Shown here: positions 2,665 through 22,397 of the stretch, in pieces
Layout: each line of letters opens with the position of its first letter
How positions within the stretch are numbered: the stretch's first letter is position 1
Source: Candidatus Aciduliprofundum sp.
GTDB lineage: Archaea; Thermoplasmatota; Thermoplasmata; Thermoplasmatales; ARK-15
DNA length: 35,032 bases
Direction of reading: 5' to 3'
Assembly (NCBI GenBank): GCA_002878135.1
Contig: PNIT01000176.1
Span: 1-35,032, forward strand
The notes under the pieces: model-generated
What the model was told of the DNA's origin: nothing
The model's database searches: none
What the model saw: the letters and a program-made list of their open reading frames with translations, nothing else
Position numbers and translations under genes: made by a program

Positions 2665-3807
2665 ATGAGAGTAATTGTTGTTGGTGGCGGAGCAGGAGGA
2701 ACAATCGTTGCAAACAGGCTTTCAAGATTGCTTTCAGATAACGTTGACAGGGGTGAGCTGGAGATCGTTGTTCTTGACAAGAGTGAATATCACTATTATC
2801 AGCCAGGATATCTATTTGTAGCCCTGGGGGAGGAAGAACCTGAACATTTCATAAGAAAGGAGAGGGAACTCCTTGATGAAAATATTAAATTCTTCCATGG
2901 TGACCAGGGTGAAGTTGTGAAGATTATGGCTGCAGAGAATAAACTCCAGACAAAGGATGGAAGGATATGGGATTATGATTATATTGTACTTGCACTGGGA
3001 TCCATTCCGTACCTAGATGCAATACCTGGTCTGAAGGAGGGATCATACAGTTTCTATACAATGGAGGATGCAATCAAGCTGAGGGATGCCATCAATGATT
3101 TCAGGTCGGGGAAGGTTGTGGTGGGTGTTTCTTCATTACCATATAAATGCCCCGTTGCACAGTACGAGATACTCTTTGCACTCCATGATCTTTTTATAAA
3201 GGAAAAGAAGGATGCAAAGTTTGAGTATTTCTTCCCACTAAAGGGTACACATCAGCACCCTGCAGTAAGTCCTGTGGGTGAGAGATGGATGGTGGAGAAG
3301 GGTATAAAGATAATATCACCATTCAATGTTACCAGGGTGGATCCGGATAAGAAGGTAATATACTCAAAGGAAAATATTGAGATAAAATACGATATGCTGA
3401 TTGTTATTCCACCTCACATCTCACCAAGGGTGGTGAGGGATTCGGGCCTAGCTGATATGTGGGTTCCCACGGATCCATACACGCTTAAGTCTTTAAAATA
3501 TGACAATATGTATCTTCTGGGGGATATTACGGACATACATGGTGTACCCAAGGCAGGTTCTGTGGCAGAATACCAGGCTTCAGTTGTGGCCAAGAACATT
3601 GCATCCAGGATAAAGAAATCCGGTACAGTTTACAAATATGATGGAAGCGCATTCTGTTTCATAATGCACAGCATGGATGAGGCAGGTTATCTCTACATGG
3701 CATACACAAAACCACCCGTAATATCACTTCCATCAAAGTATGCAAAATGGATGAAGATGCTATACAATGAACTTTATTGGGGAATGTCTGCAAAGGCGGA
3801 GATATGA
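2665..3807 (+). CDS. sulfide:quinone oxidoreductase-like FAD-dependent pyridine nucleotide-disulfide oxidoreductase
   Basis: N-terminal Rossmann VIVVGGGAGGTIVANRL; SQR-type YHYYQPGYLFVA; Cys in SSLPYKCPVAQYE and GSAFCFIMH; LLGDITDIHGVPKAGSVAEYQA FAD motif. Confidence 0.85.
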   Translation: MRVIVVGGGAGGTIVANRLSRLLSDNVDRGELEIVVLDKSEYHYYQPGYLFVALGEEEPEHFIRKERELLDENIKFFHGDQGEVVKIMAAENKLQTKDGRIWDYDYIVLALGSIPYLDAIPGLKEGSYSFYTMEDAIKLRDAINDFRSGKVVVGVSSLPYKCPVAQYEILFALHDLFIKEKKDAKFEYFFPLKGTHQHPAVSPVGERWMVEKGIKIISPFNVTRVDPDKKVIYSKENIEIKYDMLIVIPPHISPRVVRDSGLADMWVPTDPYTLKSLKYDNMYLLGDITDIHGVPKAGSVAEYQASVVAKNIASRIKKSGTVYKYDGSAFCFIMHSMDEAGYLYMAYTKPPVISLPSKYAKWMKMLYNELYWGMSAKAEI

Positions 3808-3818
3808 GGTGATGAAAT

Positions 3819-4658
3819 ATGGTAAAGAAAACGGATGTAGCAAACAAAAATACGCACTCACTGCTTGAATTGATGGATCTTGTTAAGAGGGACGAACTTG
3901 TAAGGGTAATAAACAAGGTAATAGAGCTCCAGAAGGATGGCACAATAGATAAACTCCTCGCCGTTCTTGAGATACTTTCAAAGGATAAGACAGTTGAAAG
4001 GCTTTACTTCAAGGTTCAGGATCTATCAGAGAAGGGAACATTATCAAAGATGCTGGAGGGTAATCTACTGGACAGGCAGCTTGATGCACTCCTCAAGCTC
4101 TTACAGGATGGATCCCTGCTTAAGCTGATAGACATAGTGCTTGATCTCCAGAAGAAGGGTATACTGGATCAGCTTGTTGATCTACTTTCAAAATCCACAG
4201 TTCTACTGGATAGGCTCATGGAACTCCAGAAACAGGGATATATCGATATAAATTCAATATCCAGGTTGCTTGAGAAACTCCTTGTGATGATGAAGGAGGG
4301 AACGTTTGAAAAGCTACTCTCATTGCTGTCACCTCAGCTCATAGAGCTGGCATCCGCTCTTGTTGATTTGCTTAACTCTGAGGAATACAAGGAATATGTT
4401 CTAGAGCTCGGTTCCAAACTCTTCATACTTGTGGATAAGATAATTGAGCTTGACAGGAGGGGAATGCTGGATATTTCAAAGATATCCTCCCTTGTTGAGA
4501 AGTTTGTATATATGCTCAACAATGGAACATTCGACAAGCTCATAGATCTATTGACAATGCTATCTGCTCTTCTGGATGCGCTCAATGATGAGATGGTTAA
4601 GAGCATCGCACAGAAGGCAAACAAGGCCCTTGAGATGCTTGAGCCAGGAAAATTATAA
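3819..4658 (+). CDS. DUF1641-like alpha-helical repeat protein
   Basis: Leu-rich internal repeats (e.g. LQKQGYIDINSISRLLEKLLVMMKEGTFEKLLSLLS / LDRRGMLDISKISSLVEKFVYMLNNGTFDKLIDLLT); starts 11 bp after the SQR-like gene. Confidence 0.65.
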   Translation: MVKKTDVANKNTHSLLELMDLVKRDELVRVINKVIELQKDGTIDKLLAVLEILSKDKTVERLYFKVQDLSEKGTLSKMLEGNLLDRQLDALLKLLQDGSLLKLIDIVLDLQKKGILDQLVDLLSKSTVLLDRLMELQKQGYIDINSISRLLEKLLVMMKEGTFEKLLSLLSPQLIELASALVDLLNSEEYKEYVLELGSKLFILVDKIIELDRRGMLDISKISSLVEKFVYMLNNGTFDKLIDLLTMLSALLDALNDEMVKSIAQKANKALEMLEPGKL

Positions 4659-4670
4659 AAAATTTTTTAT
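4655..4670. terminator. palindromic A6T6 element containing both convergent stop codons; candidate bidirectional terminator
   Basis: ATAAAAAATTTTTTAT is a perfect palindrome; it contains TAA of the + gene (4656-4658) and TAA of the - gene (4667-4669); followed by a further T6 on + (4672-4677). Confidence 0.45.
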
Positions 4671-5857
4671 GTTTTTTCTTCTGCAGCGTAGAGTTCAAGC
4701 AACCTTTCAGGCTTTGTGAGGTCGAAGTAGAGATCGAATATATTGTCTATCTGTGACTGCAGTGTCATCCAGTATATCCTTGCCATCATCATCTTCATTA
4801 GATGCTTGAGCCTATCGGGTGGATATGGTACAACAGGATGCTCGTAATCTGCGATAACGAATGTTCCAAGACCATAACCTAGGTCAAAGGGGCAGTTTAT
4901 CCTTCCATTGAATTTAGAATCCAGCCCATGGAATAGATCCGCCACCACCTTTGCCTCAAGGTGTGCAGTAACACCTGTCTTGGATGTTGGCAGATTGTTT
5001 GTATCCCCCAGGGCAAATGCATCATCGAAGCCATTCACCCTCATGATGTACTTGTCCACCTTGACAAAACGGTCATCATCTATCACATTCTCCGGCTCAT
5101 ACTTGATCCTCACACCCCTGCAGGGTGGAACAATGGCAGGGAAATCGTATTTGATCTCCTCCCCCTCCATGGATATTATCTTTCTGTTAACTGGATCCAC
5201 GCTATCAACATTGAAGAATGGTACTACCTCTATACCCCTTTCCTTAACAATGGGCTCCACTATCCTGTTCATGGGCTCTGCAGGATATGCCCTTGGGAAT
5301 GGTGTAAGGAATATGAACCTGGTCTTGTTCTTCAGTCCCTTTTTATTTATGTACTCTTCGGCCATTAAAATACCCTCAAGCATGGATGGCGGGCATTTGC
5401 ATATTGTGCTTGATTGTGCGAGGACGAATGTTCCACCGTTGAAATCCTTGAACTTATTCCATAGCTTCCTTGCATTATCAAGTGTGCTGTGATAATCACC
5501 ATATTCATTATGAACAGTTTCAAGACCGGGTATTGTGGATACATCTGGTGTGGTTCCGGTACATATGGTGATGAAATCATAGTCATACTTCCTTTCAGAT
5601 ATTGTCTTCACATACCTGTCATTCAGGTTTATCTCCACCACCTCATCCTTGTAGAATTTAACGCCTGGTTTTATCAGGTCACTTATTCTCCTGTATATCT
5701 TCCTGTTTGATCCCTTGAATGCCACGTAAAGGTACCAGGGCTGATAGTAATGGTATTCGCTCTTATCAATTATTGTAATTTCATAATCTTTCAGGTTCAG
5801 GGAATTTGCTAGTATGATACCGCATCCACCACCGCCTATTATAAGTACCTTCTTCAT
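4667..5857 (-). CDS. second sulfide:quinone oxidoreductase-like flavoprotein
   Basis: Preferred start MKKVLIIGGGGCGIILANSL at 5857 (ORF extends to 5881); YHYYQPWYLYVAF; STICKCPPSMLEGI; ALGDTNNLPTSKTGVTAHLEA; late Cys in NCPFDLGYGLGTFVIADYEHPV. Confidence 0.85.
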   Translation of the reverse strand: MKKVLIIGGGGCGIILANSLNLKDYEITIIDKSEYHYYQPWYLYVAFKGSNRKIYRRISDLIKPGVKFYKDEVVEINLNDRYVKTISERKYDYDFITICTGTTPDVSTIPGLETVHNEYGDYHSTLDNARKLWNKFKDFNGGTFVLAQSSTICKCPPSMLEGILMAEEYINKKGLKNKTRFIFLTPFPRAYPAEPMNRIVEPIVKERGIEVVPFFNVDSVDPVNRKIISMEGEEIKYDFPAIVPPCRGVRIKYEPENVIDDDRFVKVDKYIMRVNGFDDAFALGDTNNLPTSKTGVTAHLEAKVVADLFHGLDSKFNGRINCPFDLGYGLGTFVIADYEHPVVPYPPDRLKHLMKMMMARIYWMTLQSQIDNIFDLYFDLTKPERLLELYAAEEKT

Positions 5858-5910
5858 CTTATCACCGAATATCGTAATCAAATTTCTCTATAAAATATTT
5901 TCCAATTCCT

Positions 5911-6775: not shown

Positions 6776-7945
6776 TTAAGATTTTTTGGGTATGTAGAAC
6801 ATCATCAGGGAGCCTGCTATTGATATCACACCTATGATTATGAATGCAAGGTAGATGTTCAACGTCTGTGCAAAAACGCCTATGGCAATGGATCCAAGGG
6901 CACCTCCAATGCCACCCCCCAGACCGAATATGACGGCAGAATTCTCAGCCAGTTCCTCATCACTGGATAGCTCACCCACAAAGACCATGAGGAGTGGGAA
7001 ATTGGACATACCGAAGAAGTATGTAACTATGAATATGATTGATACGGTGTAGACATTGGAAACAAACATAAGGAGTATGAGCAGTATGCCAGGTATGAGT
7101 GATGTAACTATCAGCATTGTTTTTCCTCCATACCTGTCCGAGAGATATCCAAGGAATGGCTGCCCTACAATAGCAGTTGAATTCGCGATGAAAAGTATTA
7201 TGGCTATCAGGAAAGATGAGTAGTGCAGCGTGCTGTTCAGGAATGCTGGTAAAAGGTTGAAACCTCCCTGTATGGCTGTGTTTCTCAGGATTGTTGCAAC
7301 AAGGAAGAATGCTATTGGCAATGAAAACCTGAACACACCCCTCTTTATCTTCTTTTCAACGTATATCTCCTCCTTCCTCATATCATAGGCCACATAAAGT
7401 GATATTGCACCCATTATGAATGAGATTGATATTATTGAAAACACAAAATTTTTGTTGAATGCTGCAAGGAAACCCTCCATGATGACAGGGAAGAGTGCCC
7501 TCCCAAGGCTTCCGCCTATACCATTTATGCCAAGTACTGTCCCTGCATAATCCCTGTATCTGTAGTTGAGAATCATGGATCCTATGGGATGGTAGATTGT
7601 CGAAAATATGCTAATTATGAACATTGAAAACATGAATGATGGTATCGCGATGTACTGTGGATAAGGAGGTACAAGGAGAAGGAATGATAGGCTGAAGAGG
7701 AACATACCTATACCCATGAAAAGGCCCTTTTTCCTCGTACTGTCTATGTACCTGCCCATATATGGTGAAACAATGGCACTTCCTATGTAATAGCTCATGA
7801 GTATCATGGATTCTGCAAAGAATGAAAGATTGTAATTCTCCTTTATCATTATTATGAGGAAGAATGGAAGATAGGACAGGCCATCGTTTATGAAATGTGC
7901 AATGGTTGTATCGATCAAAATTCTATCAATCTTTATCCTTGTCAT
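6776..7945 (-). CDS. major facilitator superfamily transporter
   Basis: 389 aa polytopic protein with about 12 hydrophobic segments; early HFINDGLSYLPFFLIIM resembles the fosmidomycin-resistance-like MFS subgroup; GYLSDRYGGK loop motif. Confidence 0.85.
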   Translation of the reverse strand: MTRIKIDRILIDTTIAHFINDGLSYLPFFLIIMIKENYNLSFFAESMILMSYYIGSAIVSPYMGRYIDSTRKKGLFMGIGMFLFSLSFLLLVPPYPQYIAIPSFMFSMFIISIFSTIYHPIGSMILNYRYRDYAGTVLGINGIGGSLGRALFPVIMEGFLAAFNKNFVFSIISISFIMGAISLYVAYDMRKEEIYVEKKIKRGVFRFSLPIAFFLVATILRNTAIQGGFNLLPAFLNSTLHYSSFLIAIILFIANSTAIVGQPFLGYLSDRYGGKTMLIVTSLIPGILLILLMFVSNVYTVSIIFIVTYFFGMSNFPLLMVFVGELSSDEELAENSAVIFGLGGGIGGALGSIAIGVFAQTLNIYLAFIIIGVISIAGSLMMFYIPKKS

Positions 7946-7985: not shown

Positions 7986-8822
7986 TCAGAAGATGGTCTT
8001 CTTTTTTACACCCTGTGGAAGTATCCTGGATGCAACCTGAAAATTCCTTCCATCCCTTGAAATGAAATCCATGAGAACATAGCCCCTAGCAAAGTAATGC
8101 TGGTAAACATCAGATGTCATGATCCTCCAGTTTATTGCATCCTCAAGGTTCTTCTTCTTAATGGTATTTATATCCCTTGGTATCTCAATCAGGATATAAT
8201 CATCTGAGAGTGTGAGATCGATGTCCTTAGGTATCCTGTAATCACCCTTCTCCTCCGTTATTATTGCCTGGGGTAATTCACCGTAGCTATTATATTCCCT
8301 GTTCAGCCTTGATTTCACATGCCCGGAAAGAACGTACCACTCAGCCACCACCCTGTCCGATGGTATGCCAAAGTTCAGTGAATCCATCATGGTTCCGTAG
8401 TGGTTCTTCCTGTATGTCCTGGCTATGGCACCCAGCTTGTGGAGGTTGAAGTTTGAATTAAGACCCTGCAGCGGATCGAATGTCCAGGCAACAAGATCAA
8501 AACCCTTCTCCATGGCCCATTCCCTCTGCCTCAGCTTCAGGGAATAGCCAAGCTCAGTCTTCCTGAATTCGGGTATAACACCCGTCATATGTGAATAGAG
8601 GAAGAGGTTCCTATTCCTCTGGGCCAGCAGGGAGAAGGATATGCCCACCACCTGATCACCCTCGTATGCTAGAAGTACCAGGCCACCCGTGAATTTTATG
8701 GCTGTGAGGAGATCCTTCATTATTGTGCTCATATCCGTAACTCCCCATGCCTGTTTTATTACCTCAACACCCTTCCTTATCTCATCGGGGTTTTCAGCTA
8801 TCTCAATCCTTGGCATTTTCAA
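7986..8822 (-). CDS. GNAT-superfamily acyltransferase of COG3375 type (candidate amino acid N-succinyltransferase)
   Basis: MPRIEIAENPDEIRKGVEVIKQAWG...GGLVLLAYEGDQVVGISF...LYSHMTGVIPEFRKTELGYSLKLRQREWAMEKGFDLVAWTFDPLQGLNSNFNLHKLGAIARTYRKNHYG: hallmark blocks of COG3375. Confidence 0.8.
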   Translation of the reverse strand: MKMPRIEIAENPDEIRKGVEVIKQAWGVTDMSTIMKDLLTAIKFTGGLVLLAYEGDQVVGISFSLLAQRNRNLFLYSHMTGVIPEFRKTELGYSLKLRQREWAMEKGFDLVAWTFDPLQGLNSNFNLHKLGAIARTYRKNHYGTMMDSLNFGIPSDRVVAEWYVLSGHVKSRLNREYNSYGELPQAIITEEKGDYRIPKDIDLTLSDDYILIEIPRDINTIKKKNLEDAINWRIMTSDVYQHYFARGYVLMDFISRDGRNFQVASRILPQGVKKKTIF

Positions 8823-9918
8823 TCATCCTCCTGTAGATATCCCTGAATGTGATGAGCCTTTCAAGTGTAATATGCTCATCTGATCCATGGGCATTGTCAA
8901 GTGCAAAATCACCAGGACCGAATACAACAGTCTCAATGCCGTAGGCAATCATGTAGTTTGCATCATTGGACCCCTTACCCCCTATCGGTTCAGGAAATCT
9001 GCCCGTAACATCATGCACAGCCCCCTTCACCATACCAATGACATTGGAATCCAGGGGAATCTCCGCCGGTGGTACCTGATGTATTATCTCCACACTCATA
9101 TCCTTTCCCGTCAATCCTATCTCCTTTTTTATTCTTTCCATCAGGCCATCAACATCCATGGATGGTATTGTCCTTATGTCAAGAGTTGCCTCAGCATGGT
9201 CGGGTATAACATTCACCTTCTCACCACCATGGAAGGTGGTGCCCAGTGCCATGGTGGGATCCGGCAGATATTGATGCTTCCTGAAATCCATTCTAATGGA
9301 CTTTAGCCTTAACAGTAAGTCAGCAAGATTCATCACTGCATTATCACCAAGTTCAGGATCACTTCCATGGGCACTTTTTCCCCTGGAGATAATTTTTAAC
9401 CAGAGTGTTCCCCTTATACCCGGCCTGTAACATATCCTACCGTTAAAAACGGAACCTTCCATCACCACACCGTACCTTGCCCTGAGTTCCTCCAGTATAC
9501 TCCTGGTTCCAAGCTCTCCACCCTGTTCCTCATCAGCAACAAATGCAAATTTAAATTTTTTCAGCATATCCTTCTCTCCACGATCAACAATCTCCTCAAT
9601 GGCAACTATGAGGCTTGCCAGCGCTCCCTTCATATCCGAGGATCCCCTGCCGTAGATTATGTTACCCACGATCTCACCGTACGGGTTGTGTGTCCAGTAT
9701 CTGCCCACGGGCACGGTATCCATATGGCCGTTGAAAACAAGAAGATCCCCTGTGCCGAAGATAAGATTTACCCTGTTCTCACCCCTCCTTATTTCCTTCA
9801 GGTCCAGATAGTCCCTGAGCCTGGATTTGATAACATCCGCAACACCAGATTCATTCCCCGGTGGATTTTCACTCCTCTCCCTTATAAGCTCAAGTGTAAG
9901 TGCAGCAAGATCATCCAT
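8803..9918 (-). CDS. M20-family deacylase/peptidase (ArgE/DapE-like; candidate N-succinylamino acid desuccinylase)
   Basis: VFNGHMDTVPVG; IYGRGSSDMKGALAS; FAFVADEEQGG; GSNDANYMIAYGI metal-site motifs. Overlaps the GNAT gene by 20 bp. Confidence 0.87.
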   Translation of the reverse strand: MDDLAALTLELIRERSENPPGNESGVADVIKSRLRDYLDLKEIRRGENRVNLIFGTGDLLVFNGHMDTVPVGRYWTHNPYGEIVGNIIYGRGSSDMKGALASLIVAIEEIVDRGEKDMLKKFKFAFVADEEQGGELGTRSILEELRARYGVVMEGSVFNGRICYRPGIRGTLWLKIISRGKSAHGSDPELGDNAVMNLADLLLRLKSIRMDFRKHQYLPDPTMALGTTFHGGEKVNVIPDHAEATLDIRTIPSMDVDGLMERIKKEIGLTGKDMSVEIIHQVPPAEIPLDSNVIGMVKGAVHDVTGRFPEPIGGKGSNDANYMIAYGIETVVFGPGDFALDNAHGSDEHITLERLITFRDIYRRMIENAKD

Positions 9919-9924
9919 AAGGAA

Positions 9925-11013
9925 TCACCCTATCCTAAATGCATACCTGCTGTAACTTGATTTTTCAATGAATTCAATGTCGGGTTCAACACCTATTCCA
10001 TTGCCAGAGGGCACTGCAATGGTACCCTTCTCCATAATGAATGGCCTTTTTATTACATCCTTTTCAAAGTATCTGTCGCTCGGGCTTGTATCACCGGGCA
10101 GGGTGAACTCCTTCCTTGACTGCACTATAACATTCAGTGCCCTTCCTATACCCGTTTCCAGCATTCCACCGCACCATATTGGAATACCATTCTCCCTTGA
10201 GAAATCTATTATCCTCAGTGATTCAGAAAGTCCACCTACCCTGCCTATCTTCAGGTTTATTATCCTTCCAGCATCCATCTCATACATCCTCTCGGCATCC
10301 TCCACCGAATGTATGCTCTCATCAAGGCATATGGGTGTACTCATCTCCCTCTGAAGTTTTGAATGCCCGAGGAGATTCCTCTCATTCAGGGGCTGTTCTA
10401 TCATCAGGAGCTCGTATCTGTCAAGCATCTTTACCCTTTCCACATTTTTTTCAAAGGCCTGGTTTGCATCCACCGTAAGAGGTATATCACCGAATTCCTC
10501 CCTCACCCTCTTTACAACATCAACATCCCAGCCAGGCTTCACCTTCAGCTTTATCCTCTTGTATCCCCTATCAAGGGAATTCCTTATCATGGAAAGTAGC
10601 TTTTCCATGGGAAGTATGCCTATGCTTATTCCGGAATCTATCTTCTCCTTACTACCACCAATGATTTCCTTAAGGCTTTTACCCTTCCTCTTTGCCTGGA
10701 GGTCCCAGAGCATGGTTTCAACTGCAGATTTTGCCATATTGTGACCCTTAATCTTTCTTGCCCTTGAAATGAATTCCATTGGATCCTCAGTTTCCTTAAG
10801 TATTTCAAGGAGATAGGTCCTGAATATGTAGAGTGCAGTACCATTATCCTCATAGCTGTAACCAGGATATGAGTCTGTAACACTCTCCCCCCAGGCCTCT
10901 ACATCCCCAGAATATCTGAAAAGCAGGACATCCCTGACATTCTGCACGCCGAAGCTTGTTTCAAAAGGTACCTTGAGGGGAATTTTCATATTATAAACAA
11001 TGATCTCCGCCAT
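9925..11013 (-). CDS. enolase-superfamily N-succinylamino acid racemase / o-succinylbenzoate synthase-like enzyme
   Basis: RIKLKVKPGWD (KxK), LTVDANQAF, LMIEQPL, ICLDESI, INLKIGRVGG, and C-terminal GDTSPSDRYFEKDV, which resembles the NSAR/OSBS subgroup. Confidence 0.87.
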   Translation of the reverse strand: MAEIIVYNMKIPLKVPFETSFGVQNVRDVLLFRYSGDVEAWGESVTDSYPGYSYEDNGTALYIFRTYLLEILKETEDPMEFISRARKIKGHNMAKSAVETMLWDLQAKRKGKSLKEIIGGSKEKIDSGISIGILPMEKLLSMIRNSLDRGYKRIKLKVKPGWDVDVVKRVREEFGDIPLTVDANQAFEKNVERVKMLDRYELLMIEQPLNERNLLGHSKLQREMSTPICLDESIHSVEDAERMYEMDAGRIINLKIGRVGGLSESLRIIDFSRENGIPIWCGGMLETGIGRALNVIVQSRKEFTLPGDTSPSDRYFEKDVIKRPFIMEKGTIAVPSGNGIGVEPDIEFIEKSSYSRYAFRIG

Positions 11014-13036: not shown

Positions 13037-15526
13037 ATGGAAACACCTCTGATGAAACAGTATTACGAGATAAAGAAAAAGTACAAGGACATGATTCTAT
13101 TCTACAGGGTAGGTGACTTCTACGAGACCTTCGGCGATGATGCAAGGGTTGTTTCCAGGGAACTGAACATAGTGCTCACATCAAGGAACAGGGAAAGGGA
13201 GAACATACCAATGGCAGGAATACCATACCATGCTCTCTACTCCTACATTGGTAAGCTCGTTAACAGGGGTTACAAGGTGGCACTCTGTGAACAGCTCGAG
13301 GACCCCAGGTATGCAAAGGGCATAGTGAAGAGGGATGTTGTCAGGGTATTCACTGCAGGAACTGTATACGAGGATGAGCTCATAACATCAGTGACAAACT
13401 ACATATGCTCCATAGATCTTGAAAATAGAGGAGCAATAGTCTTTGCTGATGTATCAACAGGTGAATTCAGGGGAACATGGTTCGATGAGGATCCCATTGA
13501 AAATATAATTTCAGAGATACAGAAGATAAATCCAAGGGAGGTGGTATTTGCAAATGCCATAAATGCTGAGATCAAGAACCTCCTTGAACAGAAGAACATA
13601 CCCTACAACGTGGAGGATATTGACAGATTTGAATCCACGGACATAATGAAAAGGCATTCAATGAATTCAGGAATGCTCGATAACGATGAGATTCTCAACG
13701 CCACGGGTGCCCTCCTTAAATATCTTGAGAGGACGAACATTGATGCATTCAGGTCCCTTGGTGATCTCAGGATATACAGGAGGGGGGATTACCTGATCAT
13801 GGATGATACAACACTGAAAAATCTGGAGATTTTCAGTGATATCAGGGGTGAGGTAAAGAATTCGCTTCTCGGTATTCTTGATCACTGCAGCACAAGGATG
13901 GGCAGCAGGATTCTCAGGAGATACCTCTTTCATCCATCCATAGATCCAGATGTTATAAGGGAAAGGCAGGATATGGTATCATCCTTCCTGGGGGATACGA
14001 TATCCAGGCTATCAATCATAGATCTACTGAGGAAATTACCTGACATTGAAAGGATCTGGTCAAGGGTGGAGGCTGGAAGGGCCTCACCCCAGGATCTAAT
14101 ATCCCTGAAGAGGGCATCCTTCGTTATAAGGGATATCCTGGCTATACTCTCCTCCATGAAGAATATGGAGGATCTGAAGAACAGGATCTGGTCCATGGAT
14201 ACACTTGCAGAAAAGATTGATAGGGCAATAAATGAGGATTTTACCACAAGCAGGATAAGGGATGGCTATGATCAGGTCCTGGATAGCTACAGGAGGATAA
14301 TATCTGAAAAGGAAAGGCTGATAGGTGAGATAGAGAGGAAGGAGATAGCCGCAACAGGTATAAAGAATCTGAGGATTGGCTACAATGAGGTATTCGGTTA
14401 CTACATAGAGGTGCCAAAATCCCAGGCATCCAGGGTACCTGCATACTACATAAGGAAACAGACACTTAAGAATGTGGAGAGGTACACAACTCAGGAATTA
14501 CAGAACCTTGAATACAGCGTACAGGACGCAAGGCTGAACATTGAATCCAGGGAGGAGGAGATATACAGGAATCTACTTGATGAGTTATCAGGAATGGGAA
14601 ATGTTAGGTCAAGTGCCCTTGCCCTGGGGGAACTGGATTTCTATGTTACCATGGCCGACCTCGCTGCGAAGAGGAGGTATTCCAGACCCGTAATAGATGA
14701 ATCCACAGATATAGAGATAAAGGAAGGAAGGCATCCAGTTCTTGAGCTTCAGGGTGATTTCATACCAAATGATGCAATCCTTGATACTGATGGGAATAGG
14801 TTCATCATATTAACCGGCCCGAACATGGCGGGAAAGAGCACATACATGAGGCAGATTGCACTCATCATAATAATGGCGCAGATAGGGAGCTTTGTACCTG
14901 CTGGAAGTGCAAGGATAGGGGTTGTGGACAGGATATTTACGAGGATAGGTGCAAGTGATGACATACTCAGGGGAAGGAGCACATTTCTTAACGAGATGGT
15001 TGAGCTATCAAACATACTGAACAATGCCACGAAGAGGAGCTTCATAATACTCGATGAGGTGGGAAGGGGGACCAGCACCTTTGATGGCCTGAGCATAGCC
15101 TGGGCAGCGGTGGAATACATACACAACAGGATAGGTGCAAAGACAATATTCGCCACACATTACCATCAGCTCATTGAGATGGAGAACAATCTTGAGGGTG
15201 TCAAGAATTACCATATGCCCGTCATTGAGGAGAACGGCAGGCTTGTTTTCACAAGGAAGGTAAGGAGGGGAGGCATAAGCGAAAGCTACGGTATAGAGGT
15301 GGCTGCAATGGCAGGTCTCCCCGGGGATTTCCTTGAAAGGGCAAGGGAGATACTTAAAAAGATAGAGGAGGAGAATGTCCTGGAGGTAAGGAAGCACAAA
15401 ATAACCCAGAGGAGCCTCCTTGAATTGTTCATAATGGAGGAGTTGAGGGGCATAGATCCAGATAAGATTGATGGTGAAAAGGCAAGGGAATTAATTAAAA
15501 GGATAAAGGAGATGATTCAGGGGTAG
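13037..15526 (+). CDS. mutS: DNA mismatch repair protein MutS
   Basis: FYRVGDFYETFGDDA (mismatch-reading FYE), GIPYHAL, CEQLEDP, Walker A GPNMAGKSTYMRQIALI, DEVGRGTSTFDGLSIAWA, FATHYHQL. Confidence 0.97.
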   Translation: METPLMKQYYEIKKKYKDMILFYRVGDFYETFGDDARVVSRELNIVLTSRNRERENIPMAGIPYHALYSYIGKLVNRGYKVALCEQLEDPRYAKGIVKRDVVRVFTAGTVYEDELITSVTNYICSIDLENRGAIVFADVSTGEFRGTWFDEDPIENIISEIQKINPREVVFANAINAEIKNLLEQKNIPYNVEDIDRFESTDIMKRHSMNSGMLDNDEILNATGALLKYLERTNIDAFRSLGDLRIYRRGDYLIMDDTTLKNLEIFSDIRGEVKNSLLGILDHCSTRMGSRILRRYLFHPSIDPDVIRERQDMVSSFLGDTISRLSIIDLLRKLPDIERIWSRVEAGRASPQDLISLKRASFVIRDILAILSSMKNMEDLKNRIWSMDTLAEKIDRAINEDFTTSRIRDGYDQVLDSYRRIISEKERLIGEIERKEIAATGIKNLRIGYNEVFGYYIEVPKSQASRVPAYYIRKQTLKNVERYTTQELQNLEYSVQDARLNIESREEEIYRNLLDELSGMGNVRSSALALGELDFYVTMADLAAKRRYSRPVIDESTDIEIKEGRHPVLELQGDFIPNDAILDTDGNRFIILTGPNMAGKSTYMRQIALIIIMAQIGSFVPAGSARIGVVDRIFTRIGASDDILRGRSTFLNEMVELSNILNNATKRSFIILDEVGRGTSTFDGLSIAWAAVEYIHNRIGAKTIFATHYHQLIEMENNLEGVKNYHMPVIEENGRLVFTRKVRRGGISESYGIEVAAMAGLPGDFLERAREILKKIEEENVLEVRKHKITQRSLLELFIMEELRGIDPDKIDGEKARELIKRIKEMIQG

Positions 15527-19199: not shown

Positions 19200-19574
19200 T
19201 TATGTAAGGAAATAGTTAGATGTACCAATTATGGCATAGAGCAGCCATATGGCATATATGATCGTGGCAATGGCTACTATCCAGAATATTATGTTTATTA
19301 GTTTTATTCTCTTAACTCCCATGTCAAGTATTATTCCCCTGAGACCATTGAGCGCATGGTATGTGACCGATATTATGAAGGCTATGTAGAAGGCCTGCCA
19401 CCACGGGTCCTGCAGCCTCTCAAGTATCTTCTGGAAAAGTATGTTATTTATGCCATACGCATGTGCTATTATGAGATGAACACCTAGGAAGAAGACCATG
19501 AAGACTGCTGTAACCATCTGGAATAGCCAGGCCAGGGGCTCCATGCTTTTCTTAACACTCTCATTGAATGCCAT
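19200..19574 (-). CDS. sdhD: succinate dehydrogenase membrane anchor subunit (SdhD-like)
   Basis: Three TM segments; YHALNGLRGIILDMG signature; adjacent to sdhC, sdhB and sdhA. Confidence 0.8.
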   Translation of the reverse strand: MAFNESVKKSMEPLAWLFQMVTAVFMVFFLGVHLIIAHAYGINNILFQKILERLQDPWWQAFYIAFIISVTYHALNGLRGIILDMGVKRIKLINIIFWIVAIATIIYAIWLLYAIIGTSNYFLT

Positions 19575-19964
19575 CTATGCTCCCCCCATGAAGCTTTCCA
19601 CAACAAAGTATGTTAGTATTAACCATCCTATAAGACCGAGGACCATCATTATCCAGAAGAATAGCTTCCTCTTCCTTGTTCCTATGCCAAACTCCTGGAC
19701 AACAAGTCTCACACCATTTGCACCATGGTAGAATATAACCAGGAATAGCAGTATATCAAGAACAACGAACGGAGGAGATTCGACAGTTGAAAGAAAATTC
19801 CTGTAAGCAATACCACCGTTGAGGAGCTGTGAGAGTGCTGTGAGATGCATGTAAAGGTAGAGAAGAATTACAAGCCCCGTCAATCTATGGAGAATGAAAG
19901 CTATGCCGCTCTGCAAATGCCTACCCTTTATGTTTATCCAGTTAAGTGAATCCTTGAAAGACAT
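19575..19964 (-). CDS. sdhC: succinate dehydrogenase cytochrome b556 subunit (SdhC-like)
   Basis: SGIAFILHRLTGLVILLYLYMHL and FYHGANGVRLVVQEFG. Confidence 0.87.
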   Translation of the reverse strand: MSFKDSLNWINIKGRHLQSGIAFILHRLTGLVILLYLYMHLTALSQLLNGGIAYRNFLSTVESPPFVVLDILLFLVIFYHGANGVRLVVQEFGIGTRKRKLFFWIMMVLGLIGWLILTYFVVESFMGGA

Positions 19965-20687
19965 CTATTCCTTCACCCCCAGATGTAAAAATTTCTTCAG
20001 TTCATAACCGGCAGCCTGTACCTTAAGCTTCTGTATTGCACCTGCCGGATCAATGTCCTTGGGGCATGCCTCGGAACATTCAGAGGAGAAGTGGCATCTC
20101 CAGCATCCCTCTGCATCGCTAACAACCGCCAGCCTAAGGTTTTTACCCTGGTCCCTGCTATCGGCATTGAACCTGTATGCCGCAGCAAGTGCTGCTGGGC
20201 CAAGATAGAAAGGATCGCTTACGGCCACCGGGCATGCGGCAAGGCACGCACCGCATTTTATACATAGTGTAAATTGCTTGTATTTTGCAAGCTGTTCAGG
20301 GGATTGAAGCAGCTGCCCCTCAGGATTATCCTTCCTTATGAGATATGGTTTCACACTCTCATGCTTCTTGAAGAAACCATCAAAATCAACCACAAGATCC
20401 CTTATCCAGGGATAGCCTGCCAGTGGTTCAAGTGTTATCACCTTCTTACCAATGGTTTTTATCTGTGTGGAGCATGCAGTTCTTGGAAAATTGTTAACCA
20501 TTACTGCACAGGATCCGCACACCTCCATCCTGCATGATGCCCTGAAGGAGAGTGTTCTGTCAATGTTATCCCTTATGTAATAGAGGGCATCCAGTATAGT
20601 GGTACCATTCTCCACTGGCACCTCATAATCCCTGTATTCCCATTTTTCTGGCGTACCCTTCTTTATCCTAAAGATTACCTTATCCAT
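19965..20687 (-). CDS. sdhB: succinate dehydrogenase/fumarate reductase iron-sulfur subunit
   Basis: SCRMEVCGSCAVMVNNFPRTAC (2Fe-2S), CIKCGACLAACPV, CHFSSECSEACPKDIDPAGAI. Confidence 0.96.
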   Translation of the reverse strand: MDKVIFRIKKGTPEKWEYRDYEVPVENGTTILDALYYIRDNIDRTLSFRASCRMEVCGSCAVMVNNFPRTACSTQIKTIGKKVITLEPLAGYPWIRDLVVDFDGFFKKHESVKPYLIRKDNPEGQLLQSPEQLAKYKQFTLCIKCGACLAACPVAVSDPFYLGPAALAAAYRFNADSRDQGKNLRLAVVSDAEGCWRCHFSSECSEACPKDIDPAGAIQKLKVQAAGYELKKFLHLGVKE

Positions 20688-20696
20688 ATGATCACC

Positions 20697-22397
20697 TCAG
20701 TACTTCCTTTCCTCCGGTTTCCATTTTGTTACCCTTACAGGTATGTAGCTGAGCTGTATCTCCCCATTGACCTTCTGTGCAATTGTATGTTTCATCCAGT
20801 TCACATCATCCCTCTTTGGATAATCTGTTCTATAGTGAGCACCCCTGCTTTCCTTCCTCGCAATTGCTCCAAGTATTACCACCTCCGCCACCTCCAGTAA
20901 GTTATCAAGCTCAAGGTAAGTGAACAGGTTTGTGTTGTATTCCATCACCCTGTCCTCCACATATACATTCCTGAACCTCTCCTGGAGTGATTTAACAATC
21001 TTCAGTGCGTCAAGGAGATCCTTCTCATTCCTGAATATGCCCACCTTCTCCTGCATGGTGTTGTTAAGTTCTCTCCTCAGAAGTGGGACTGTTTCATCAC
21101 CCCTCTTCTTGAAAGCCTCAACATAGATCCTGTTCTCCTCCGCCTTCACCTTCTCCATGTCTATGTCGTTCATCCTTGCATTCTTAACATATAGTGCCGC
21201 ATTCCTTCCGGAAATGTCACCGAAAACAAGGCACTCTGCAGTTGAATTTGATCCAAGCCTGTTTGCACCATGTATGCTTATGCATGAGGCCTCACCTGCT
21301 GTGAATATTCCCTTTACCGGTGTGCTTGTATCATTATCCGCATGTATTCCACCCATGGTGTAATGTGCAGCAGGCCTAACAGGCAATGGTTCATCCTTTG
21401 GATCTATTCCATTGAATTTAATTGCAATATCCCTTATGGCGGGTAATCTTTCCCTTATCTTTGCATCACCCAGGTGCCTCAGGTCAAGGAGCAGGTAGGG
21501 TCCCCATGGACCTGTAAAGCCCCTGCCCTCCTGTATCTCCCACATCATGGATCTTGAAACAACATCCCTGGGTGCAAGTTCCATCTTCTGCGGTGCATAT
21601 TTCTGCATGAACCTTTCATTCTTGTTGTTGAGGAGATATCCTCCCTCACCCCTTGCACCCTCGGTTATGAGTATGCCGGATGGTACTATACCAGTGGGGT
21701 GGAACTGAATGAACTCCATGTCCTTCAGCTGCATGCCTGCCTTCAGTGCCATTGCAGCACCATCACCTGTGACCGTATGTGAATATGTGGTGAATGAGTA
21801 TAGCCTCCCCAGGCCTCCGGTGGCAATTATCAGGGCCTTTCCCCTGAAGAGAACAAATTCACCATTCTTCATGTTTATGGCGGTGAGTCCTGAGAATCCC
21901 TCCTTATTTATTATGAAGGATGTTACGAAATACTCCTGGTACCTCTCTATGTTTTCATAGAAAAGCATCCTCTCATAGAGGGTATGAAGCGCATGAAAAC
22001 CTGTCCTGTCTGCAGCGTATGTTGCCCTGGGGAAGCTGTGACCACCGAATGGTCTCTGTGCAATCCTTCCATCGGGTAACCTGCTCCAGGGACATCCCCA
22101 GTGATCAAGGTCAAGAATCTCCTTGGGCATTGTCCTTACGAATATTTCAACGGCATCCTGATCCGCAAGGTAATCGCTACCCTTTATAGTATCGTAAGCG
22201 TGTAAATCATAGCTATCACCCTCATAAAGAACGGCTGCTGTACCTCCCTCTGCCGCTACAGAATGGGATCTGAGGAAAAATAGCTTTGATATGACTGCAA
22301 TCTTTATGTTCTTATCTGTTTCGGCAGCGGATATTGCTGCCCTGAGTCCCGCGAGACCTGCACCAAGTATCAATAAATCTGCCTCAATCTTCTCCAT
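20697..22397 (-). CDS. sdhA: succinate dehydrogenase/fumarate reductase flavoprotein subunit
   Basis: LILGAGLAGLRAAISA; RSHSVAAEGGTAAVL; FIQFHPTGI; TEGARGEGGYLLN; AAHYTMGGI; GEASCISIHGANRLGSNSTAECLVFG. Confidence 0.97.
   Translation of the reverse strand: MEKIEADLLILGAGLAGLRAAISAAETDKNIKIAVISKLFFLRSHSVAAEGGTAAVLYEGDSYDLHAYDTIKGSDYLADQDAVEIFVRTMPKEILDLDHWGCPWSRLPDGRIAQRPFGGHSFPRATYAADRTGFHALHTLYERMLFYENIERYQEYFVTSFIINKEGFSGLTAINMKNGEFVLFRGKALIIATGGLGRLYSFTTYSHTVTGDGAAMALKAGMQLKDMEFIQFHPTGIVPSGILITEGARGEGGYLLNNKNERFMQKYAPQKMELAPRDVVSRSMMWEIQEGRGFTGPWGPYLLLDLRHLGDAKIRERLPAIRDIAIKFNGIDPKDEPLPVRPAAHYTMGGIHADNDTSTPVKGIFTAGEASCISIHGANRLGSNSTAECLVFGDISGRNAALYVKNARMNDIDMEKVKAEENRIYVEAFKKRGDETVPLLRRELNNTMQEKVGIFRNEKDLLDALKIVKSLQERFRNVYVEDRVMEYNTNLFTYLELDNLLEVAEVVILGAIARKESRGAHYRTDYPKRDDVNWMKHTIAQKVNGEIQLSYIPVRVTKWKPEERKY

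Follow-up and report, generated by a model that had tools for sequence, protein, structure and literature searches.

The window, by which we mean the whole 35,032-nucleotide stretch of contig PNIT01000176.1 analyzed here, comes from a 1.37-Mb draft genome (181 contigs, 91% complete) of an archaeon of the Thermoplasmatales kind. It carries three co-directional, touching genes, as a preliminary description of this DNA had proposed, and open reading frames are indeed found for all three. The features of the locus are:

9925-11013, minus strand: NSAR-like enzyme, 362 aa, of the N-succinylamino acid racemase/o-succinylbenzoate synthase (NSAR/OSBS) subfamily of the enolase superfamily
8803-9918, minus strand: M20 amidohydrolase of the ArgE/DapE type, 371 aa (PF01546 and PF07687)
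7986-8816, minus strand: GNAT N-acyltransferase, 276 aa from the ATG at 8816, with a conserved C-terminal domain
7986-8822, minus strand: GNAT reading frame, open to a TTG at 8822, 278 aa
8827-8832, minus strand: AGGAGG, a Shine-Dalgarno-like site for the GNAT within the tail of the M20 gene (consensus match only)
6776-7945, minus strand: MFS transporter (PF07690), downstream, a possible member of the unit

The NSAR and M20 genes are separated by a gap of 6 nt, and the M20 and GNAT genes overlap, the junction reading AGGAGG...TTGAAAATG. The preliminary description had the GNAT begin at TTG 8822, the only point on which it needed correction. The sequence indicates that ATG 8816 is probably the start, since the AGGAGG motif lies 10 nt before it and the GNAT of a congener, G002, begins MPEI.. 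from a matching ATG; counted from this codon, the overlap with the M20 gene is 14 nt. The MFS gene follows 40 nt past the GNAT and is itself followed by a gene for S-methyl-5'-thioadenosine phosphorylase. The MFS protein had been put forward as a possible amino acid/peptide transporter. Its family is as described, but its link to the trio is weak, being kept only within the genus: it adjoins the three genes only in G002, with an extra gene in between. A role as transporter of the pathway is a possibility only.

The racemase-like protein belongs to the enolase superfamily, as first described, with its KxK/D/E/D/K catalytic set complete (K155, K157, D182, E206, D231 and K255, plus R258) and the GDTSPSDRYF tail present at residues 307-316. 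It matched PF13378 with an E-value of 1e-46, and its best NCBIfam match was TIGR01928 (menC_lowGC_arch, o-succinylbenzoate synthase; 347.7 bits, E=5e-104, cut-off 200.65). The best PDB match was 1sja, an N-acyl/N-succinylamino acid racemase from Amycolatopsis (305.8 bits). The two align over almost their full length, and the window enzyme shares with the Amycolatopsis racemase (1sja, 4a6g) the catalytic set, K163/K165/D189/E214/D239/K263/R266 of that enzyme in the motif alignment, including the R266 equivalent, and the S/F pair in the 20s loop. It differs in its host context and at position 323, which is Y, not F, as in most of the subfamily. Assignment as a dipeptide epimerase, which would have spoken against the original proposal, was rejected, the relevant models scoring far under their cut-offs (NF041118, 87.6 bits vs. 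500; NF011708, 77.7 vs. 343).

Pfam gives the GNAT only a faint match (PF13480, E=5e-4, below cut-off), and NCBIfam gives none. Its AlphaFold model (pLDDT 95, pTM 0.90) nevertheless matched solved GNATs in Foldseek with an E-value of 3e-7 and a probability of 1.00 over about 165 residues, the C-terminal domain falling outside the matches listed. A scan of genome contigs with the single GNAT sequence found no relatives, but a profile search of GTDB genomes with a GNAT alignment yielded 218 that were confirmed, and we retained 80 of them. The profile search also placed members of this family in operons of Cytobacillus and other Bacillaceae, at about 30% identity, and 18 columns of the alignment are invariant over 24 sequences. 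By analogy, we propose that the protein would act as an acyl(succinyl)-CoA:D-amino acid N-acyltransferase.

The M20 protein carries PF01546 and PF07687 and scores just below the cut-off of TIGR01910 (203.6 bits vs. 217.6, E=5e-60), so that the family assignments originally made for all three proteins hold. When it is aligned to the DapE structure 3ic1, the metal-ligand positions are kept. We propose, again by analogy, that it would be an N-acyl(succinyl)-L-amino acid hydrolase. M20s of the window type adjoin GNAT and NSAR genes in Actinomycetota and Chloroflexota, where they score 244-296 bits, compared with 103 for the other M20 of the window. In the window's genus, and through much of family f6, the hydrolase next to NSAR is of the ArgE/DapE type; family f3 has an M20D amidohydrolase there, as the Bacillaceae operons do; and in genus g11 no M20 adjoins the NSAR gene. 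Since the type of M20 varies by lineage, it would appear to be the hydrolase step that is retained, rather than one gene, with the gene being swapped between lineages.

Among the 80 kept GNAT loci, an NSAR-like gene was present on the same stretch in 40 and within 300 bp in 33. The loci were picked by the GNAT alone, and the linkage to NSAR is therefore not built into the sample. NSAR-linked GNATs occurred in seven phyla (Thermoplasmatota, Thermoproteota, Nitrososphaerota, Bacillota, Actinomycetota, Chloroflexota and Planctomycetota). Across 41 genomes of the order, with NSAR called above 280 bits, 25 had both genes, 15 had neither and one had the GNAT only. The corresponding figures for 243 genomes of the phylum were 22 with both, 216 with neither, five with the GNAT only and none with NSAR only (Fisher p = 2.5e-10 and 8e-27, respectively, shared ancestry being ignored). 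The two genes are also jointly missing from several lineages within groups that otherwise have them, for example from a congener of the window's organism (G001, 88% complete) and from G313 of genus g14 (97% complete). Their joint absence points to a genuine functional link, and one that adjacency does not explain, because the genes lie far apart in many of these genomes. Against the pathway reading, the GNAT is not beside NSAR in genus g11 or in f3. The five genomes with GNAT only, together with Acidobacteriota GNAT loci in which NSAR is absent nearby, suggest that the GNAT may have uses outside the NSAR pathway.

Two further arrangements were seen in this survey. In f3 (loci L095-L108), the GNAT sits away from NSAR in a fixed block beside genes that, by sequence look only, resemble those for tRNA-guanine transglycosylase and primase. 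In the type-strain record of Thermogymnomonas acidicola JCM 13583 (L162, L239), the NSAR, M20 and GNAT frames are in pieces, through either decay or assembly errors.

An operon encoding NSAR, a GNAT succinyltransferase and an M20 desuccinylase in Geobacillus kaustophilus was reportedly described by Sakai and colleagues in 2006 as a D- to L-amino acid pathway, its gene order said to be M20-GNAT-NSAR. The window holds three homologous functions in one operon, as the preliminary description had recognized, and its GNAT is homologous to those encoded beside NSAR and M20 genes in Bacillota, Actinomycetota and other groups. The GNAT family is that of the Bacillaceae M20D-GNAT-NSAR operons, among which the G. 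kaustophilus sequences were not identified by name; in one checked genome such an operon occurs alongside a separate men operon. The window differs from the G. kaustophilus case in its archaeal host, in its gene order (NSAR-M20-GNAT), in having a hydrolase of the ArgE/DapE type rather than an M20D, and in a racemase that belongs to a distinct Thermoplasmata/Nitrososphaerota clade.

With the families, active-site residues, linkage and co-occurrence of these genes established here, we consider it likely that the three form an operon for the one-way conversion of D- to L-amino acids. The GNAT would N-acylate a D-amino acid, most likely from succinyl-CoA; NSAR would racemize the N-acyl amino acid via a Mg2+-stabilized enolate, using lysines K157 and K255; and the M20 metallohydrolase would deacylate the L form only, releasing the free amino acid and drawing the equilibrium in that direction. 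We infer the acyl group, the D-selectivity of the GNAT, the L-selectivity of the M20, the direction of the pathway and its benefit to the cell from the analogy with the bacterial system. We found no assays of archaeal members, and no work on archaeal NSAR in this pathway, in the open literature. The archaeal trio extends a known type of bacterial pathway and is not a new kind of system. If the proposal is correct, a pathway described experimentally in bacteria reaches a whole archaeal order as well as Thermoproteota and Nitrososphaerota, and would account for wall-less acidophiles feeding on D-amino acids. More tentatively, deracemization may be an order-wide trait by which wall-less acidophilic scavengers use D-amino acids from bacterial remains, with hydrolases swapped between lineages and the 'menC' expression reported from acidic bioelectrochemical cells reflecting D-amino acid use instead of menaquinone shuttling; we regard this broader picture as possible and do not hold it firmly.

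The same enzymes could instead handle another acyl group (acetyl, malonyl or other) or serve another purpose, such as removing harmful D- or N-acyl-amino acids or salvaging the N-acyl amino acids of neighbors. Acyl promiscuity within the subfamily is consistent with this, the Amycolatopsis enzyme having been deposited as both an N-acyl and an N-succinylamino acid racemase. So are four Thermoplasmata loci (L160, L161, L165 and L170) in which M20D precedes the GNAT and NSAR is absent within the retrieved stretch; there, the racemase may be encoded at another site, or the two genes may serve a different function. That NSAR and GNAT co-occur so strictly speaks against these variants, and favors a pathway producing the N-acyl amino acid itself over one that takes it up. 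Taken together, we consider these variants unlikely.

A different possibility is that the enolase-superfamily gene is the MenC of menaquinone synthesis and that its neighbors are incidental. The TIGR01928 score, well above cut-off, would fit this, and members of the NSAR/OSBS subfamily can have OSBS activity, as their names in the PDB also reflect. Thermoplasmatales do contain menaquinone, and among the quinones of cultured members it dominates, with MK-7:7 in Oxyplasma and Cuniculiplasma (PMC11349054). The TIGR01928 match loses its weight, however, in a single Bacillus genome, where the MenC encoded after menD, menB and menE scored 401.7 bits with the model and the enzyme encoded after M20D and GNAT scored 413.1 bits. 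Both enzyme types score alike, and the name o-succinylbenzoate synthase is therefore uninformative.

As this name was of no help, gene context served as the label in an IQ-TREE phylogeny of 99 rows. Eighteen Bacillaceae sequences with MenE directly upstream were labeled men (MenC sampling thus covering Bacillaceae only), and 21 sequences from bacteria, each adjoining a GNAT of the window's family, were labeled GNAT-linked; many of the non-men rows had been gathered via the GNAT. The men-operon MenCs formed one clade with 100/100 support, to which the window racemase did not belong; its own clade numbered 42 rows, of which 39 were Thermoplasmata and the remaining 3 other archaea (support 98/87). 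The comparison of racemase and OSBS lineages called for at the outset thus came out on the side of the original proposal. The Bacillus men-operon MenC shares with the window racemase its NCBIfam equivalog, fold and catalytic residues, but differs at five positions: in window numbering the men clade has H20, L21, V130, S290 and I309, whereas the window enzyme and nearly all GNAT-linked enzymes have S, F, S, G and T. The residues of the men clade may be traits derived within it and not ones that set specificity. The arginine equivalent to R266, beside the second catalytic lysine, has been linked to NSAR activity; it is R258 in the window racemase, but is also found in 17 of the 18 men-operon MenCs, and is therefore uninformative as a discriminator. 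The tree also contained a second, distant GNAT-NSAR lineage (L129, L130, L133, L136, L137, L146, L151 and L187), made up of other Thermoplasmata groups and Actinomycetota sequences (support 86/93), whose position suggests a separate acquisition of the pathway.

The preliminary description had noted that no menaquinone-synthesis gene is in the window, and this argument against a MenC role can be extended to the genome and its relatives: neither MenD nor MenB (TIGR00173, TIGR01929) was found over cut-off in any of the 41 genomes, that of the window included. In eight f6 genomes, paired MqnE-like radical-SAM genes, called by score under the curated cut-off, lie close together beside a PF02621 gene, and these relatives look to be using a futalosine-type route. 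The window's genome has two PF02621 genes, but neither MqnC nor MqnE was found there, and we therefore do not claim this route for it. Given the lack of MenD and MenB, the phylogeny and the signature residues, a dedicated MenC role was rejected, and we consider it very improbable that the gene serves menaquinone synthesis. The proposed D- to L-amino acid pathway would also bear on published transcript data. In acidic bioelectrochemical cells with Ferroplasma-like and Cuniculiplasma-like archaea, high levels of 'menC' transcripts in the Ferroplasma-like population, and some in the C. divulgatum-like one, were interpreted in terms of menaquinone shuttles (PMC6289977). This claim may rest on naming of the TIGR01928 type; if the menC in question belongs to the NSAR family, the menaquinone-shuttle reading does not follow. 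The widely used automatic name o-succinylbenzoate synthase/menC is thus untrustworthy for the NSAR family in archaea, and this uninformative name, the order-wide spread and the swapped hydrolase are what the present analysis adds to the preliminary description.

Finally, it is very unlikely that the M20 serves in making lysine or arginine (DapE/ArgE), with the cluster a biosynthetic remnant: ArgE/DapE is the best general family for this M20, but no DapE or ArgE equivalog matches at cut-off, window-type M20s accompany GNAT and NSAR in the two bacterial phyla named above, and M20D occupies the same place in other lineages.

Elsewhere in the window, genes for succinate dehydrogenase and sulfide:quinone-reductase-like proteins are found at 19200-22397 and 2665-5881, and a full-length MutS with domains I-V is encoded at 13037-15526. 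Other housekeeping genes include those for enolase, ribosomal protein S2, Memo and an M18 aminopeptidase.
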